In this document: positions 26,551 through 33,035 of the stretch, piece after piece
Position numbering within the stretch: position 1 is the stretch's first letter
Layout of the letters: every line of letters starts with the position of its first letter
Assembly: GCF_016106035.1 (NCBI RefSeq)
Contig: NZ_JADKPZ010000004.1
Span: 1 to 64,000 of the forward strand
Reading direction: 5' to 3'
Length of the DNA stretch: 64,000 nucleotides
Origin: Arcobacter vandammei
GTDB lineage: Bacteria > Campylobacterota > Campylobacteria > Campylobacterales > Arcobacteraceae
Translations under genes and position numbers: made by a program
The notes under the pieces: generated by a model
What the model was told of the DNA's origin: nothing
Databases searched by the model: none
What the model saw: the letters and a program-made list of their open reading frames with translations, nothing else

Positions 26551-26597
26551 AAAAGAAGTGTAGCAAAGTTTTGCAAAATATATTTAATTTTGCTATT

Positions 26598-27683
26598 TTA
26601 ATTTAGAAAATGCTTTCTAACATCTTCTAGGAACTCCTCTTTATCAAAATATTTTGTGTGATGAATTAAAATATCAGAAGCCTTTGCTCTTGCTTTTGTG
26701 CCATTTGTAAAAGATTTTTTTACATTTCCTTGATTTGTAACTCTTTTTTCTTCTGCTCCAACAAGCAAAATCATACCTTTGCCATCATCATCTAAATAAT
26801 CTATAATTGAATCTAGTTTATATACAAAATCTTCACCTTCGATAAATTTTCTAAGTTTACACTCTATTACATGAAGATGATTATCTTTTATCATCAAAAT
26901 ATCAAATTCGTTTTGAAATTGTGGTTCAAACTCTACTTTTACATTGAACATTACATGGTCAAAATCGAAATTATCTACTATTAACCAGTAGATATACTCT
27001 TCAAAAATTGTACCTTGGATAAACATTTTATCATTGATTTTATCCATCTTTTCAAGCTCTTTTTTTATCTCATTAAAACCAGCTATCTCATCGTATCTTT
27101 TATTTTGTATCAAAAAAGCAAACTCTTGATAGGAAGCTAAATTCTCACAAATTTTCATCACAATATCTTTTCTTTTATAGGCTTCAATTTTGCTTCCCAT
27201 AGATAAAACTTCATAACCTTTTAGCATAAAGTGAGTGTAAATATCTTTGTTTTTTGAGATGATTTTGTTTTGCATAGAGTGCTTTGTAAGGATATTGTAG
27301 CCATTGTCAAAAATATCATAAGCTATAAAACTTGCACCTTTTTCAAGTAATTTTGAAGACAAGATGATAGTTGAAGATACCATTCCACCTGTTGCATTGA
27401 AGTAGATATTTTCAAAATCACTGTTTGAAAGTTTTAAAATCTCTTCATAACAATTTAAAATCGAATCATAAGAGTCTTCATCTATTTTTATTGAGTGTGT
27501 TTCAAAACTCAAAGAGTAAAAATCTTTGAATTTCTCTTGCGAAGCTAAAACTTTTTTTATCATAGTTGTTTCATATTTTGAATCATCGTGGATGATTATA
27601 TGTTTTGTTATTTTCTCTTTAAATTCAAAAAGAATTGGGAAGATTGAAGAGTCGTGAATACCTAAAAGAGAGATTAAAATCAT
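26598..27683 (-). CDS. CARF-PD-(D/E)XK nuclease, Card1/Can2 (DUF1887) family
   Basis: 361 residues. The N-terminal half is a CARF-type Rossmann domain with the ligand-loop motif FNATGGM (95-101). A linker follows, then a PD-(D/E)XK nuclease with Glu228/Glu229 (GTIFEEY), Asp261 (NEFD) and Glu274-x-Lys276 (IECK). These are the core residues of Card1 and Can2, which cut nucleic acid when bound by cyclic tetra-adenylate from type III CRISPR. No Cas10 or array is in the window. It follows the SAVED gene by 12 nt as the last gene of a six-gene operon. A nuclease effector gated by a cyclic nucleotide is the inferred role. Confidence 0.85.
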   Translation of the reverse strand: MILISLLGIHDSSIFPILFEFKEKITKHIIIHDDSKYETTMIKKVLASQEKFKDFYSLSFETHSIKIDEDSYDSILNCYEEILKLSNSDFENIYFNATGGMVSSTIILSSKLLEKGASFIAYDIFDNGYNILTKHSMQNKIISKNKDIYTHFMLKGYEVLSMGSKIEAYKRKDIVMKICENLASYQEFAFLIQNKRYDEIAGFNEIKKELEKMDKINDKMFIQGTIFEEYIYWLIVDNFDFDHVMFNVKVEFEPQFQNEFDILMIKDNHLHVIECKLRKFIEGEDFVYKLDSIIDYLDDDGKGMILLVGAEEKRVTNQGNVKKSFTNGTKARAKASDILIHHTKYFDKEEFLEDVRKHFLN

Positions 27684-27695
27684 ATTTGTTTCCTA

Positions 27696-28682
27696 CTAAA
27701 AATAATATTTTATTTCATTCATTTTATATACTTTTGGATATGAACCTTTATTGTATTGAGTGATTGTAATATTCCAATAATCTCCAAAACCCATTCCTAA
27801 TAAAATTGCCAAAGCTTCTGGCATAGAGTGAGCAATTGTGATATTTTTGTATTGTGTTTGCAAAGAGTTAAATACATTGTAAATCTCTTGAGAATACTCT
27901 GTCCAGTCATTTTCATATGGTATAGTCCCAGGTTCTTTTAGCTTTATTTTTACAATATTTTTATAATTTTTTAAATCATCAGAATTTAAATTTACATTAT
28001 GACTAGCAGAATTTATTACAACAAGAATTTCATCAATATTGCTATCTTTTATATCTTTTTCTACAATATATTTTTTAAATTCACCAATTCTCTCTTTATA
28101 TCTTCTATCATCAATATTTGCAACCATATCTAAAGAGTTTTTATTGTTTGTCTGATATATCGCTACACTATTTGTTTTGAAAATTGTTCCTATCAAAAAG
28201 GCAACAGCAGGTCTTCTATAAAAAGCTATATGTATTTTTACAGGTTTGTTTAAAACTTCTTCTAATTGTGCGATATTGTATTTTATAACTCGTGCAAAAT
28301 TCATCAATCTATCAAAATTGTCCATATCACAAACCTCTTCAAAGATTAATCTATCTGTATTTACAGAATAGTATTTTTGCAATATTTTTTTATAATCTTT
28401 GTAGCCATACTGTTTTTCAATATTTCTAAGCAATTCATTCATAATATATTGTGTTTGAGAACCATCATCTACTTTTATCACAATTGGAATATGAACCACA
28501 CTCTTATTAAATTTTTTATCTTTTCTCCACTCAAAATAAACAGCACCTAAAACAGAAATACATAAAAATAGACTAACAGTACCAGTAAAAAATTTATTAT
28601 CAAAATAATCATAAGCTGGTCCTAAAAGAAAAGCTATTATACCTATAATTGCTATGAGTTTATTGTCTAAAATATATCTCAT
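27696..28682 (-). CDS. Two-TM protein with SAVED-like sensor domain
   Basis: 328 residues. Two TM helices (about 8-25 and 32-50) are followed by a cytoplasmic domain with two CARF-like pseudo-repeats: VKIHIAFYRRPAVAFLIG at 148-165 and ITIAHSMPEALAILLGMGF at 281-299. The His-x(5)-Pro-Ala-x-Ala-x-x-hydrophobic-Gly pattern is typical of SAVED domains, which bind cyclic oligonucleotides in CBASS and type III CRISPR effectors. The layout recalls 2TM-SAVED effectors (Cap14-like). Its start overlaps the MotB-like stop by 1 nt (TAATG). The assignment rests on motif reading only; the ligand is unknown. Confidence 0.68.
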   Translation of the reverse strand: MRYILDNKLIAIIGIIAFLLGPAYDYFDNKFFTGTVSLFLCISVLGAVYFEWRKDKKFNKSVVHIPIVIKVDDGSQTQYIMNELLRNIEKQYGYKDYKKILQKYYSVNTDRLIFEEVCDMDNFDRLMNFARVIKYNIAQLEEVLNKPVKIHIAFYRRPAVAFLIGTIFKTNSVAIYQTNNKNSLDMVANIDDRRYKERIGEFKKYIVEKDIKDSNIDEILVVINSASHNVNLNSDDLKNYKNIVKIKLKEPGTIPYENDWTEYSQEIYNVFNSLQTQYKNITIAHSMPEALAILLGMGFGDYWNITITQYNKGSYPKVYKMNEIKYYF

Positions 28683-29374
28683 TAATTTTCCTTATTAATT
28701 TTATTTTGTTCCAAATTATCAAATTTTGCTTCCCTAATAATTATACTAACTCTTCTATTTGCTTCTCTTGCTTCCTCATCTATTGAGCTTTTTATTTCTC
28801 CTTTATACTCTACTAAAGGTTGATTTTCTGCATTTGCTACTAATCTTACATTTTTATTATTTAGTCCTAATTCTTCTAAATATTTTTGTATTGCCAAAGC
28901 TCTTAAAGCAGATAGCTCCCAATTTGACACTTTAAAGCTAGGAACATTATCTGTATGCCCTTCAATATCTATATATCTATACTTGCTATGTGCAACAATC
29001 TCATCAAGAATAGGTTTCATTTTTGATATTTTCTCTTTATTTACAATATATGAACCACTCTCAAATTGTGCTGCAGATGAAAAACTAACAATTAAGCCAT
29101 TTTTATCTATTTTTATATTTACAAACTCTTCTAAATTATTGTTTTTTACAAGATTTTCTATAATAACTTGAATTTGAGCTAAAGTTTTAAACTCTTCATA
29201 CTCTTTCTTCTTTTTCTCAATCATAACTTTTTGAATCATATCATATTTTTCAATATCAATTTTCGAGAAAGATACAAACAAAACCATTACTGCAAAAATT
29301 GCAGAGATCAAATCAGCATAACTTGTAATCCATAAATCTTGATTTTTATTACTACTAAATCTTCGTTTCGTCAT
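28682..29374 (-). CDS. MotB/ZorB-like protein: TM segment plus OmpA peptidoglycan-binding domain
   Basis: 230 residues. A short basic N-terminus is followed by one TM helix, DLWITSYADLISAIFAVMVL, with Asp21 at the ion-conducting position of MotB (YAD motif). A helical linker (about 45-80) leads to an OmpA-like domain ending IDIEGHTDNVPSF ... ANRRVSIII, which binds peptidoglycan. This is the architecture of ZorB and MotB. It overlaps the channel gene by 20 nt. The surrounding genes are not motility genes, so a Zorya-like stator in a defence system is more likely than flagellar MotB. Confidence 0.82.
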   Translation of the reverse strand: MTKRRFSSNKNQDLWITSYADLISAIFAVMVLFVSFSKIDIEKYDMIQKVMIEKKKKEYEEFKTLAQIQVIIENLVKNNNLEEFVNIKIDKNGLIVSFSSAAQFESGSYIVNKEKISKMKPILDEIVAHSKYRYIDIEGHTDNVPSFKVSNWELSALRALAIQKYLEELGLNNKNVRLVANAENQPLVEYKGEIKSSIDEEAREANRRVSIIIREAKFDNLEQNKINKEN

Positions 29375-30155
29375 TACTATTTACTTCTTTTTCTTTAATA
29401 TCATAAACTTCTAAAAACTCTGCAAAATTTACCTTGTGATAAAATTTTCTAACTGCTATTTCTAAATCATTAAAATCATTTTCGAGCTTAATTTGCTGTT
29501 TCTCTTTGTATCTTGCAAGTGGCTTAAAAATAACAATAGTAACTAAAGATGCATATAAAGTTGTTGCTAAAGCCAAACTTAAACCAGCAAATTTTTTCTC
29601 AAAATCTTCAGCTTGTGATGGTTCTGCAAACATCATCAAAAGTCCTGCAACTGTACCAATCATACCGATAATTGGCATAAGAGTAGCAGCATATTCATAA
29701 TCATTTTTTAGTTTACTATAAGAATTATCTATTGTGTTATATATTTTTTGTATTCCTAGCAACAAATCATCTTCAATACCACCAAATCTTAGTATTTTCA
29801 ATACTTCATCTATACTTTCATTCTTTTTAGATTTTTCACTTAAATCAAAAATAGTGATTTTTTCTTCAAAATAATCTTCAAAAGATTTTTCAGCCTCTTT
29901 TATACTTTTGTTTTCGTATGCCCTTACAGTTTTATTACTATCTCTATCAACAGTGAACCAAAGTCCAACAGCAGAAAGTCCTATAAAAATAGCAGAATTT
30001 ATATGAATTATTCCCCAAATCATTTTTGAGTTATATTCACCTAAAATAGGTAGTTCAAATCCTAATTCATCAGGATTTATCGATGGCAACACTACACAAA
30101 CAATAAAAAGTGCCATTATCCACACAGCTTGTATTAAAATTCCTTTATTTATCAT
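29355..30155 (-). CDS. MotA/TolQ/ExbB-family proton channel (ZorA-like, short tail)
   Basis: 266 residues with four TM helices (about 5-24, 45-67, 157-177, 188-211). The last two carry the channel-family signature: MPIIGMIGTVAGLLMMF and LSLALATTLYASLVTIVIF, with Thr168 and Thr198/Thr199 lining the pore. It pairs with the MotB-like gene downstream (20-nt overlap), as ZorA pairs with ZorB. Classical ZorA has a cytoplasmic tail of several hundred residues; here only about 55 residues follow TM4. The 90-residue loop between TM2 and TM3 is charged and could contact partner proteins. Confidence 0.82.
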   Translation of the reverse strand: MINKGILIQAVWIMALFIVCVVLPSINPDELGFELPILGEYNSKMIWGIIHINSAIFIGLSAVGLWFTVDRDSNKTVRAYENKSIKEAEKSFEDYFEEKITIFDLSEKSKKNESIDEVLKILRFGGIEDDLLLGIQKIYNTIDNSYSKLKNDYEYAATLMPIIGMIGTVAGLLMMFAEPSQAEDFEKKFAGLSLALATTLYASLVTIVIFKPLARYKEKQQIKLENDFNDLEIAVRKFYHKVNFAEFLEVYDIKEKEVNSNDETKI

Positions 30156-30745
30156 TTTCTATTTTCCTTTATTAATTCTAAAATTTTTAATCTATCTTGT
30201 TTTATAAAATTTTTATCTATTTGAGGTATATAAAATATTTTTGTACCCCAAATAATCTCTCTAAAATCAACACTTTGTCCAATTTTTAAGCCACATTTTT
30301 CAAACAAACTATCTTTTTCTTCAAAAGTTAAATATGCACTTTCAAAAGAGTGAAATATAGCTTGATTATTTTTGCTACCTTTGTAAACAAAACTTTTATA
30401 TGAGCTGATTTTATCTATCTCGCCTTTGTTTGTTGCAAAGATTTTGGCTATATCTCCTTTGCTTCCATCTTCAGAAAATATAACAACAGTAGTATCAGGA
30501 AAAGGAAGATATTTTGAATAATAATCTTCCAAAGAGTAATATCTTGTATTGCCTTCAACTAAAATTTCTAAACTCTGATTTTCTTCATCAAAATCTATAT
30601 ATTTACCTTTTACAAAAAGCTTAACATCTATGCCATCTGTTGCATTTGAGGTTAAATGCTTTTTATGTTTTTGTAGCTCTTTTTCGATATTTTCTATCTT
30701 TTTTACAATATTTTCTATGGTATTTTTTAGTTTATTATCTTGCAT
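30152..30745 (-). CDS. Unknown coiled-coil plus beta-rich protein of the defence-like operon
   Basis: 197 residues, no family recognised. Residues about 5-32 form a Lys/Glu/Ile heptad-like helix. Residues 35-120 look beta-rich (DVKLFVKGKYIDF, LEILVEGNTRYYSL, TTVVIFSEDG). The C-terminal part is mixed and charged. There is no signal peptide or TM segment, so it is likely cytoplasmic. It overlaps the HEPN gene by 11 nt and the channel gene by 4 nt. It may be an adaptor or sensor feeding the channel; that is inference from position only. Confidence 0.7.
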   Translation of the reverse strand: MQDNKLKNTIENIVKKIENIEKELQKHKKHLTSNATDGIDVKLFVKGKYIDFDEENQSLEILVEGNTRYYSLEDYYSKYLPFPDTTVVIFSEDGSKGDIAKIFATNKGEIDKISSYKSFVYKGSKNNQAIFHSFESAYLTFEEKDSLFEKCGLKIGQSVDFREIIWGTKIFYIPQIDKNFIKQDRLKILELIKENRK

Positions 30746-32570
30746 TTAATTTATCCCTAAATTTTTTTAGTTCTTCAATTTCTAATGAAGTTAATTTATC
30801 TTCTTTATTCATCATTGCCATTTTAAAAAGCCATTTATTTACATTGGTTCGTACTTTGGAAGCTCTTTCTATCAATTCATCAAATTCCATATTAAAATAT
30901 GTTTTTGCAAATTTATCCTTAAAAAAATTATGATTAAATTCTTTATTGATTAAATAACTAACCTTATCTTCTTTTGATTTGATTATTCCACTAACAATAT
31001 TGGTATTCTCATCAATTAACTTTTGTACAGAAATTTCTTTTTCTTTAAGAATATTTGCAAAATCATACAATCGTGTTTTCATTCTTTGATTTTTTGTAAA
31101 ATCTATACCTATCTTATCAATAGTTGAGATTTTTAAATTTGTTTGATTTGTTATTTCTTTATAAACTTCTTCTTTTATTTCAGCTGGTGTTAAATTTCTA
31201 TCTTGTTTTTTTAATCTATATTCATCTAAATTTATATTTAAATCTTCGGATATAAATTTTATTCCGTCTTCGTAAGATTTTATATATTTTTCAAACTCTT
31301 CTGGATTCCATAATAATCCATTATGAGCTATATCATTTCTAAATCTAACTGCTTCGCTCAACTCTTTATACTTTAACCTTTGGTTTGGGTTTTCATTTGA
31401 ATAATTTATAAGAGCTTTTCCCAAAGTAGTGCTGTATTTCTTTTTCATCAAACTTTCTGCAACCCAATGTAAAATATATAATCTTTGTTGAGAATAGCCC
31501 AAGATTTCACAATTTTCAAGCAGACTTTTGGCATTTGGATTCTCATTTATCTCTTTTTGTATCTCTTTTAGATTTTTTGCCAATGGCACAAAACTTTTTC
31601 CACCACTTAATGCACAAATTTGGTCTTTATAATACTCGTCTAAAGCTGGTAAAAATTTTTTAAAATTTTCTTTATCATTTTGAGTTAAAACTGCTGGTAA
31701 ATCTTCTAGTTTATGGTTTAAAATACCTTTTAACTTTGCAACATCTTTTATTAGTTCACTTGTATCTGGAAAATCTGTTCTTTTTTCATCATTTAAAAGA
31801 GATTTATAAAACTCTTCTCGCTCTTTTATTACTTTTGAATTTTTAAAGTTTGAATTATTCATAAAGTTAAGCAAAAAATCAAGTTCAACTCTACTAATTC
31901 TTTCATCTTCAAAAGTCAAAGTTCTAAAATATCCTTTTTTCTGTAACTGATTTAAAACATATTTTTTTATATCAATTCCTAACTCTTCAAGCTCTTTTTT
32001 CTCTTCTATTACACTTTTCTTAAATTCTAAATCATTATTTGTTGCTAATTCTTCCAATAAAATTCCAAATTGTTTTAATCTTAGATTTAATTTTGTATCA
32101 ACTTCATAACTAAAAGCTACTGGATTTATCTGCTCTTTTTTTGATTTTCCAAGTGGATATTGATGTGTATTTAACCCTTTTTTACCCATCTCCTTTAGTA
32201 AATTTAGTTTAGCTCTTTCAGACTCATTTAATAATTTACTCAATTCTATTGATTCAACACTCATATTTTCTAAAGAACCACTAAGTTCAATCATTGACTC
32301 AATTATCTCTGCACTATCTTCTCTAATAGGAGAAGTTAAATATTCATGTAGTTTCCTGATTGGTGATTTATTCTCATTGTTATTAATTTCTATTTCAGTA
32401 TCATAATTTTCTTCAAAACTATTATCTTCAATATTATTTTCAACTATTTCAATAGCATTTTTATTTATTATTTCAGTATAAAATTGACTTATATTTGTAC
32501 TGGATAAGAGATTATTAAACTTTAAATTATCGTTTAGAATCCACTTAAATTCTCTGTTTTCTTGTGACAT
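30735..32570 (-). CDS. Large helical protein with HEPN-type RX4H motif
   Basis: 611 residues, almost all helical. An acidic, Asn-rich segment (about 35-70) follows a short N-terminal region. Residues about 350-445 resemble a HEPN domain: RLYILHWVAESLMKKK, then AVRFRNDIAHNG with Arg411 and His416, the RX4-6H active site of HEPN ribonucleases and nucleotide-modifying enzymes. No polymerase (GGDD, GS..D.D) or helicase motif is visible. RBS AAGGAG precedes ATG 32570. First gene of the six-gene operon. RNA cleavage or a toxin-like role is inferred from the motif. Confidence 0.7.
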   Translation of the reverse strand: MSQENREFKWILNDNLKFNNLLSSTNISQFYTEIINKNAIEIVENNIEDNSFEENYDTEIEINNNENKSPIRKLHEYLTSPIREDSAEIIESMIELSGSLENMSVESIELSKLLNESERAKLNLLKEMGKKGLNTHQYPLGKSKKEQINPVAFSYEVDTKLNLRLKQFGILLEELATNNDLEFKKSVIEEKKELEELGIDIKKYVLNQLQKKGYFRTLTFEDERISRVELDFLLNFMNNSNFKNSKVIKEREEFYKSLLNDEKRTDFPDTSELIKDVAKLKGILNHKLEDLPAVLTQNDKENFKKFLPALDEYYKDQICALSGGKSFVPLAKNLKEIQKEINENPNAKSLLENCEILGYSQQRLYILHWVAESLMKKKYSTTLGKALINYSNENPNQRLKYKELSEAVRFRNDIAHNGLLWNPEEFEKYIKSYEDGIKFISEDLNINLDEYRLKKQDRNLTPAEIKEEVYKEITNQTNLKISTIDKIGIDFTKNQRMKTRLYDFANILKEKEISVQKLIDENTNIVSGIIKSKEDKVSYLINKEFNHNFFKDKFAKTYFNMEFDELIERASKVRTNVNKWLFKMAMMNKEDKLTSLEIEELKKFRDKLNAR

Positions 32571-32594
32571 AAATTAAATAGCTCCTTATTATTT

Positions 32595-32609
32595 TGACAA
32601 TATTTGTCA
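32595..32609. promoter_or_regulatory. Inverted repeat in the leader of the defence-like operon
   Basis: TGACAA-TAT-TTGTCA, a perfect 6-bp-arm palindrome 25 bp upstream of the first start codon. It lies between a possible -10 (TATAAA on the minus strand, near 32614-32622) and the RBS. A repressor site is possible; no regulator gene is in the operon. Confidence 0.4.
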
Positions 32610-32678
32610 TTTTTATATTTAGTTATTTTTTAATAAATTGAGTTTTAATATTATCTTTATTCTACTTAAAATAATTTC

Positions 32679-33035
32679 CTAAAACAGTATTTGCACACCA
32701 TATTCTCTATGTAAAACAGCCATTTTATAGTAATCTTTCCTATCTTGATTTTTTACTCCCAATCTTTTTTGTGTTTTTAATTTTATCTCTACTTCATTTC
32801 CACTTAAAAGTTCTCTTACTTCACTATGTTTTAAATAGTGTCCATAACGGCTAAGTGCATTTTGCCAAATCTTAAAATCACATTTTGACTCAAGAGTTAG
32901 CTCAAAAAACTCTCCATCTTCAGTTTTCCAATTTGCATTACTACAAGCATAAAGTTCTACTTTTTTTCCTCTTACCTCTTTTTTTCTCACTTCAATTTGT
33001 CCATCTTCACAATAAGGACATTTTCCTAAAATCAT
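32679..33035 (-). CDS. Topoisomerase-type C-terminal repeat/zinc-ribbon protein
   Basis: 118 residues. The start GKCPYCEDGQIEVRKKEV, then YACSNANWKTE and CDFKIWQNALSRYGHYLKHSEVRELLSG, follows the pattern of the repeat found at the C-terminus of some type IA topoisomerases (GxCPxCG...C...CxFxIWK...Lx..E...LL). Here it is free-standing. Four cysteines could bind zinc and DNA. Function unknown. It is upstream of, and on the same strand as, the defence-like operon, with a 108-bp gap that contains the operon's own promoter region. Confidence 0.6.
   Translation of the reverse strand: MILGKCPYCEDGQIEVRKKEVRGKKVELYACSNANWKTEDGEFFELTLESKCDFKIWQNALSRYGHYLKHSEVRELLSGNEVEIKLKTQKRLGVKNQDRKDYYKMAVLHREYGVQILF

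Follow-up and report, generated by a model that had tools for sequence, protein, structure and literature searches.

A Conserved Mobile Operon of Campylobacterota Encoding a MotA-MotB Stator, a Likely HEPN Ribonuclease and a 2TM-SAVED Protein

INTRODUCTION

What might a rotary stator accomplish when it is encoded in the same short operon as a likely ribonuclease (RNase) and a protein of the kind that senses oligonucleotides? This question is raised by a locus of Arcobacter vandammei that lies at positions 26,598 to 32,570 of a 64,000-nucleotide (nt) stretch of DNA (NCBI RefSeq assembly GCF_016106035.1, contig NZ_JADKPZ010000004.1, positions 1 to 64,000 of the forward strand), hereafter called the window. 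A preliminary description of the sequence had assigned six genes at this site to a single system, and had proposed that envelope sensing by a Zorya-like MotAB stator is linked to a membrane effector and a nuclease that are gated by a second messenger. The analyses reported herein reveal that five of these genes form a core that recurs in five genomes, and this core very probably represents a conserved mobile module that has not been described previously. The island and its genes (g1 to g6; protein lengths in amino acids, aa) are as follows.

26596..32664, no strand: island with approximate ends; left break at ~26595/26596, right break between ~32664 and ~32676
30735..32570, minus strand: g1, likely HEPN protein, 611 aa; HEPN domain at residues ~331-450, with R411, N412, A415 and H416; N-terminal ~330 residues predicted to be helical
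30152..30745, minus strand: g2, 197 aa; predicted coiled-coil helix (residues 2-29) and a beta domain, weakly OB/cold-shock-like at residues ~41-106
29355..30155, minus strand: g3, MotA/ExbB-like stator subunit (MotA), 266 aa; Pfam MotA_ExbB; no long tail of the ZorA type
28682..29374, minus strand: g4, MotB/OmpA-like stator subunit (MotB), 230 aa; Pfam OmpA and MotB_plug; peptidoglycan-binding domain; D21
27696..28682, minus strand: g5, protein with two transmembrane segments and a SAVED domain (2TM-SAVED), 328 aa; Pfam SAVED; putative ligand or ring-nuclease site with R193, K196 and H228
26598..27683, minus strand: g6, accessory Card1/Can2-like (DUF1887) nuclease with CARF and PD-(D/E)XK domains, 361 aa; PADLOC and Pfam matches; D261, E274 and K276

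RESULTS AND DISCUSSION

A five-gene core recurs at unrelated genomic sites

The coordinates and lengths originally given for the six open reading frames (ORFs) match the ORF list exactly, as do the junctions between them, which comprise four overlaps (11, 4, 20 and 1 nt) and a single gap of 12 nt. That these genes constitute one operon is borne out both by their close spacing and by the side-by-side arrangement of the core genes in four other genomes, where the core junctions are overlaps or gaps of no more than 12 nt. A hydropathy scan places four hydrophobic regions in MotA, one segment in MotB (residues 14-42) and hydrophobic segments within residues 2-50 of g5; the same scan detects none in g1 or g2, and in g6 residues 1-19 alone exceed the threshold.

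The complete core, which encodes the 2TM-SAVED, HEPN, g2, MotA and MotB proteins, was found at unrelated sites in the A. vandammei genome (G000), in G009 and G350 (each assembled as one contig), and in two metagenome-assembled genomes (MAGs; G422 and G423). All six genes are present in G009, overlapping and in the same order as in the window, at a different site. In G350 the genes for SAVED, HEPN, g2, MotA and MotB are consecutive and the CARF nuclease is absent from the locus; both MAG loci read SAVED-HEPN-g2-MotA-MotB, with no CARF nuclease within the stretch read. The proposal of a six-gene system could have failed had its genes never been found together elsewhere. It stands insofar as the set is kept in other genomes; however, the conserved unit comprises five genes, to which the CARF nuclease is an accessory. 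The core is contiguous at all five loci, but in two circularly permuted orders, with the SAVED gene first at three loci (L015, L018 and L019) and last of the core in the window and in the G009 locus (L006). Identity to the window proteins is 36-62% for SAVED, 27-54% for HEPN, 23-68% for g2, 32-69% for MotA and 41-72% for MotB, and at such low values the joint conservation of these genes is not attributable to recent copying.

Whole-genome profile searches covered the phylum, whereas a pattern scan of genome contigs and searches of viral and plasmid sequences extended beyond it. Searching 60 relatives with g5 yielded four matches, in the A. vandammei genome itself, G009 (62%), G042 (34%) and, weakly, G007; the last of these (E 2.6e-4, 30% over residues 22-130, inside an 810-aa frame) was dropped. 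Among 397 genomes of the phylum, the g5 profile matched that of A. vandammei, G009, G350 and G042. The g1 profile matched the first three of these and G357, where the match (E 4.7e-4) was rejected because it falls within an ORF of 934 aa that we read as encoding a helicase. The pattern scan returned 123 candidate stretches, from which two relatives emerged, one in a Sulfurimonas MAG and one in a Nautiliaceae MAG. Every g1 homologue retained after inspection (5/5) sits in a core operon. Viral contigs gave no match to g1, SAVED or MotA, and the plasmid collection gave none to SAVED (g5) or g1. Just upstream of the G350 operon, and on the same strand, is a gene for a WYL regulator (L015:10911-11837, 2.4e-23); the ORF lists of the other four copies include no WYL regulator adjacent to the operon.

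The window operon occupies an insertion site next to ThiL

ThiL was found in 31 of 31 genomes of the genus, and its locus was read in 30 of them, including that of A. vandammei, with flanks of up to 1.5 kb. One locus, in G002 (L047), provides an empty site, where the genes for TruD, ThiL and proteins of 118, 175 and 104 aa are consecutive, with no operon among them; its position in the window is between ThiL and the 118-aa gene. Alignment of the flanks with this one empty site, on which the island ends rest, puts the left break at ~26595 and the right break between ~32664 and ~32676, a range left uncertain by the AT-rich intergenic DNA. The ThiL locus of G009 also lacks the operon, and a strong match to g5 occurs in 2 of the 31 genus genomes. 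As judged from sequence comparison, the window operon is a mobile island.

Two further observations concern the neighbours of these islands. The 118-aa gene that adjoins the window island (window 32679-33035) is zinc-ribbon-like, and a homologue lies within the 1.5-kb ThiL flanks at 1 of 29 other genus loci, that of G002. Near the operon in G009 is a transposase-like ORF of 409 aa (L006:4354-5583), which we take to resemble IS110.

The stator is related to MotA-MotB in general

Three Pfam models that identify a MotAB-like pair pass their cut-offs, namely MotA_ExbB for MotA (38.6 versus 22.9 bits) and both OmpA (7.9e-16) and MotB_plug (3.5e-8) for MotB. Among solved structures, MotA matches MotA/PomA entries at E ~1e-7, and MotB matches MotB 6ysl (E 9.8e-26) and 8qyd (E 2.6e-6), a structure titled as a membrane protein that we take to be ZorB. 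Residues P161, T168, T198 and T199 of MotA are invariant at all five loci, as is D21 of MotB, presumably the aspartate of the proton path. The MotA proteins range from 240 to 274 aa.

The label 'Zorya-like' applies to this pair only in the sense of a generic stator. MotB does match ZorB models (best 8.3e-17, 59.3 bits), but not specifically, because the flagellar MotD model scores higher (93.6 bits). Window MotA matched no PADLOC family at E ≤1, ZorA included, and the PADLOC models for ZorC-G found no match in any protein of the six-gene operon. The equivalog level of flagellar MotAB in NCBIfam is not reached either (MotB-type 93.6 versus 283; MotA-type 37.5 versus 394).

The 2TM-SAVED protein resembles CalpL at its ligand site

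The SAVED assignment of g5 was upheld by Pfam (47.7 bits versus a cut-off of 26.2; 1.9e-12), and PADLOC models for CARF-membrane proteins and SAVED4 match to 1.4e-37 and 1.4e-30, respectively. By sequence, the solved structures matched are CcaCalpL (9eyi, E 7.2e-14) and AcrIII-2 (9r8s, E 1.1e-7). PMC12751052 identifies 9EYJ, an entry identical in sequence to 9eyi, as CcaCalpL bound to cyclic tetra-adenylate (cA4), and 9R8S as the viral SAVED ring nuclease AcrIII-2, which cannot cleave cA4 without R96, K99 and H128. The site of SsCalpL, as given in excerpts of PMC11417357, includes R361, K364 and H392. Residues R193, K196 and H228 of g5, invariant in all six g5 homologues, align with R401, K404 and H439 of CcaCalpL (numbers counted from the printed alignment). 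Equating H228 with H128 of AcrIII-2 assumes that the 9r8s chain is offset by 7, and equating the Arg/Lys pair with R96/K99 of AcrIII-2 and R361/K364 of SsCalpL relies only on the R-x2-K spacing. On the basis of its fold and these cA4-site Arg, Lys and His residues, g5 is classed as a SAVED protein of the CalpL branch, and its ligand is reasonably likely to be an oligoadenylate.

The SAVED homologue of G042 (L007, G042:C6:173001-189802) sits amid type III cas genes, as named from ORF readings. The Cas10 gene there is cut by the contig end, and the Csm1 C-terminus at that end scores 149.5 bits against a cut-off of 170. By ORF reading, this locus also carries PIN-like ORFs, a WYL-like regulator and Cas1/Cas2-like ORFs.

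The g1 protein is a likely HEPN ribonuclease

Neither family libraries nor sequence comparison with structures identify g1, for which searches of Pfam, PADLOC and NCBIfam gave nothing at E ≤1; both g1 and g2 lack a credible match by sequence among solved structures. An AlphaFold2 model of g1, built from three sequences, is poor overall (predicted local distance difference test, pLDDT, 50.5). Residues 331-450, however, mostly reach a pLDDT of 71-90 per ten-residue block, with weaker blocks at 331-340 and 411-420. With VIA-align, ranks 1-16 are Csm6, HEPN or HepT proteins at Z 6.0-8.2, the best being Csm6 6tug (Z 8.2, 103 aligned residues, 3.0 Å). Twelve of these 16 are titled Csm6, HEPN or MntA-HepT, including AF_0298 (2hsb) and Csm6 of T. 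thermophilus, and the other four (5yep, 7bxo, 2q00 and 1ylm) we take to be HEPN proteins. Because such scores are moderate, the HEPN call rests on the company of these matches together with the RNxxAH motif (R411-N412-x-x-A415-H416), which is invariant in g1 at all five loci. The modelled fold and the RX4-6H motif thus indicate that g1 is likely to be a HEPN RNase, an identity that had been proposed from the outset and that holds for fold and motif, though not by any family-library match.

Two other identities for g1 were considered. One protein among the five (L018:4951-6531, residues 183-328) matches the PADLOC model C3a181 at 0.0023, which would suggest a diadenylate cyclase; the other four have no such match, and so this one is read as chance and the identity was rejected. 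A nucleotidyltransferase assignment, based on a GGxS-like string, was dropped because the motif is lost in L018.

The adjacent g2 gene is also present at all five loci, and its product has nothing over the Pfam cut-off and nothing in PADLOC at E ≤1. VIA-align of the first barrel in its model gives EF-P as the best match (Z 6.5), followed by IF5A, cold-shock domains and the proteasomal-ATPase Arc, which offers weak grounds for an OB/cold-shock-like assignment. A ZorA match of the L015 g2 protein at 5e-4 was rejected because it spans the coiled coil only. Overall, profiles recovered the SAVED, Card1 and MotAB families and VIA-align recovered HEPN, whereas Foldseek alone returned nothing for g1 or g2 at E ≤0.001.

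An accessory CARF nuclease has a relative beside a plasmid type III-B CRISPR locus

The g6 gene is present in two of the five operons, those of the window and G009. Its product matches the PADLOC model CARF4 CARF_PDDEXK over its full length (E 8.1e-108), Pfam Card1_endonuc (47.7 versus 26.4 bits; 1.5e-12) and Can2 7bdv (E 7.4e-8), and D261, E274 and K276 fall within the stretch aligned with Can2. These matches agree with the initial reading as a CARF-PD-(D/E)XK nuclease, although the Pfam CARF model remains below its cut-off (10.5 versus 24.6 bits). With its CARF and PD-(D/E)XK domains and the D, E and K residues of the latter, g6 is classed as a Card1/Can2 nuclease.

Three Arcobacter plasmid records, each of 82,987 bp, encode a 77.8% relative of g6. 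In CP134857.1, a plasmid of Arcobacter from chicken meat (L068, 24114-55196), this relative lies beside a type III-B CRISPR locus that includes Cmr2, cas1, cmr4, cmr5, cmr6, a CorA-family gene, a NERD-domain gene and a WYL regulator. The relative is on the opposite strand, ~2 kb past the WYL regulator and ~8.6 kb from cas10/cmr2. We interpret g6 as an effector of the type III sort that was added to the core operon within a single genus, and plasmids with a type III-B locus could supply a ligand in trans.

Known messenger synthases were not found with the operon

Neither Csm1 (TIGR02578) nor Cmr2 (TIGR02577) passes its cut-off in any of the five operon genomes, with Csm1 matches below the cut-off in G000, G350 and G422. 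The CD-NTase model SMODS (PF18144) is likewise absent from these five genomes, two of which are MAGs, and other CD-NTase models and clades were not searched. The mCpol model (PF18182) passes in none of the five, with a 20.8-bit match below the cut-off in G423; it also passes in none of 14 control genomes, and its sensitivity is therefore unproven. The Cas10-palm model PF22335 passes its low cut-off in 6/6 genomes searched and also in E. coli, which is not known to have a type III system. Its best score is 32.7 bits in the five operon genomes compared with 65.7 in G042. The A. vandammei match (G000:C9), which alone was inspected, overlaps a 509-aa ORF that reads as a membrane GGDEF-type protein and was rejected as a Cas10 candidate. 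Low scores, together with the pass in E. coli, are the grounds on which we regard the PF22335 matches of the five genomes as GGDEF proteins. With no known synthase over its cut-off apart from these GGDEF-like matches, the second-messenger link of the preliminary description is tentative.

Parts are shared with several defence systems

Judged by defining genes, the operon falls outside Zorya, CBASS, Panoptes and type III CRISPR, even though its parts resemble components of each. CBASS includes systems with 2TM-SAVED effectors, and the 2TM plus SAVED architecture is common to both; the operon differs in its extra stator and HEPN genes and in the lack of a SMODS-model CD-NTase in the operon or the five genomes. 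The HEPN toxins (HepT and MntA-HepT) and Csm6 resemble g1 in fold, at moderate scores, and in the RX4H motif, but they differ from g1, which carries a large additional region at its N-terminus, is encoded in the operon without MntA and is accompanied by a stator. Similarities to the cyclic oligoadenylate (cOA) effectors of type III CRISPR (CalpL, Cam1, Csm6/Csx1 and Can2/Card1) comprise the CalpL-kind SAVED domain, the Csm6-like HEPN fold and the CARF-PD-(D/E)XK nuclease, and relatives of two operon parts sit in or beside type III loci. Unlike those systems, the operon has no Cas10, Csm1/Cmr2 models stay below cut-off in the five genomes, and the module is coupled to a stator.

Zorya shares with the operon a MotAB-like stator that has a peptidoglycan-binding B subunit and is encoded alongside a nuclease effector. 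Its envelope trigger and local nuclease provide the model that we borrow below. PMC11890865 reports that Zorya depends on the tail of ZorA as well as on ion flow and binding to peptidoglycan, and that upon infection ZorE is brought to the membrane by ZorAB. The operon instead has no ZorA-model match, no long MotA tail and no ZorC-G match, and carries a HEPN effector and a SAVED sensor at all five loci. Panoptes is similar in its effectors, since PMC12657218 reports that operons encoding mCpol can include 2TM-SAVED genes or, less frequently, HEPN genes, which shows that these two effector types mix. However, mCpol operons encode their own synthase, and the genomes considered here have no mCpol over the cut-off and do have the stator.

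A stator-triggered HEPN ribonuclease as the favoured explanation

The best explanation overall, to which we assign a probability of roughly 0.45, is a mobile and probably antiphage module in which a stator would trigger the HEPN RNase in concert with a membrane partner that reads oligoadenylates. A role in defence is itself probable. Casting the stator as trigger and HEPN as effector, by analogy with Zorya, is a tentative choice that falls a little short of an even bet. On this model, MotA and MotB would assemble as a 5:2 proton-driven stator anchored to peptidoglycan, which would engage and turn when a phage disturbs the cell wall, as proposed for ZorAB. With g2 in place of the ZorA tail, the stator would recruit or activate HEPN at the membrane, and RNA cleavage by HEPN would stop growth. 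The 2TM-SAVED protein would belong to the same membrane complex, bind an oligoadenylate (cA4-like or linear) through its CalpL-type site residues and oligomerise, thereby amplifying the response as a pore or a scaffold. Its ring-nuclease site could later remove the ligand as an off-switch, and the CARF nuclease, where encoded, may read the same ligand and cut nucleic acid.

A variant of this model would dispense with a cyclase. The stator-activated HEPN protein would cut A-rich RNA to short linear oligoadenylates with 2′,3′-cyclic phosphate ends, which the 2TM-SAVED protein and, where encoded, the CARF nuclease would read, with SAVED oligomerising to amplify the signal. CalpL is reported to bind linear A4 with surprisingly high affinity (PMC11417357). 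Such a scheme is improbable; if it were true, the messenger would be the product of the effector itself.

Several observations weigh against the favoured explanation. The SAVED ligand has no visible source, given that Csm1, Cmr2, SMODS and mCpol are not found over cut-off in the five genomes. The residue at Ser286 of g5, which should align with S194 of AcrIII-2, is Ser in three, Asn in two and Ala in one of six SAVED proteins, and so ligand cleavage may be lost in the latter three; with R/K/H invariant and this position variable, an oligoadenylate ligand is supported and its cleavage in every copy is not. MotA lacks a long tail, and its replacement by g2 depends on a weak structural model. Confidence in the g1 model is low over most of the protein, and it dips at and just after the HEPN motif, with pLDDT below 50 at residues 417-421. 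VIA-align warns that Z below ~13 may reflect an arrangement common among helical folds, which makes its value of ~8 moderate, and Foldseek is silent on g1. Only five examples were found, all from Campylobacterota. Finally, PADLOC returned no match at 1e-3 for 10 chosen other ORFs of the window, of which eight come from the other 52 that reach 120 aa and two are shorter and lie close to the island; they thus give no sign of a defence island around this copy.

Among competing explanations, the most serious treats the stator as the effector. A cOA made elsewhere, for example by a plasmid type III CRISPR system, would bind SAVED and the CARF nuclease; SAVED would oligomerise and open MotAB, the proton gradient would collapse and HEPN would degrade RNA, such that the operon would be a free-standing set of type III effectors. 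The intact SAVED site residues are consistent with this scheme, as are the G042 homologue amid type III cas genes and the g6 relative that adjoins a plasmid-borne type III-B locus containing Cmr2 and CorA, and membrane effectors of the Cam1 type depolarise cells on cA4 in the accessible portion of PMC11229360. We nonetheless judge it unlikely, because the operon persists without such a partner (Csm1/Cmr2 over cut-off in 0/5), the CARF nuclease is absent from three of five copies, and MotB retains a peptidoglycan-binding domain that a simple pore would not be expected to need. Alternatively, the module might serve the envelope or a stress response rather than defence, with the stator acting on the wall or surface and HEPN and SAVED regulating RNA turnover. 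MotAB-like pairs drive other envelope tasks, the flanking ORFs look like housekeeping genes in the loci read, and the 10 chosen ORFs are without PADLOC matches. Its patchy occurrence (2/31 in the genus), the island with an empty site, the WYL regulator in G350 and the kinship of its parts with type III CRISPR or HEPN toxin proteins make this role improbable as well.

Two explanations drawn from established systems carry still less weight. As a Panoptes-like guard or decoy, the SAVED-2TM protein would be silenced by a steady-state nucleotide and released when phage anti-defence removes it, leaving the stator and HEPN to execute the response. The reported association of mCpol with 2TM-SAVED genes, and more rarely with HEPN genes, lends this idea some substance, but the operon has no cyclase gene, mCpol passes in 0/5 genomes (with the caveat of 0/14 controls), and MotA is absent from the main text of PMC12657218; we consider it quite improbable. 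Least probable is that the operon represents an additional type of Zorya, with HEPN and SAVED taking the place of ZorC-G. The stator logic would be the same and ZorB models match MotB at 8.3e-17, yet MotA has neither a ZorA-model match nor a long tail, flagellar MotD/MotB models give MotB the better scores, and ZorC-G are not matched.

Implications

A description that joins SAVED with MotA/MotB was not found in the open-access papers searched, and an earlier mention elsewhere, for example in the 2020 census of CARF and SAVED proteins, is possible; the accessible parts of PMC12669027 and PMC12505986 do not mention MotA with SAVED. Five of the six parts belong to known families or folds, and the novelty lies in their combination, its conservation and the missing synthase. 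Because no known synthase exceeds its cut-off beyond the GGDEF-like matches, the operon raises the testable question of what free-standing SAVED and CARF sensors read. If the stator-triggered HEPN model is correct, this module would unite the rotary stators of Zorya and the oligonucleotide sensing of CBASS and type III CRISPR within one short operon.

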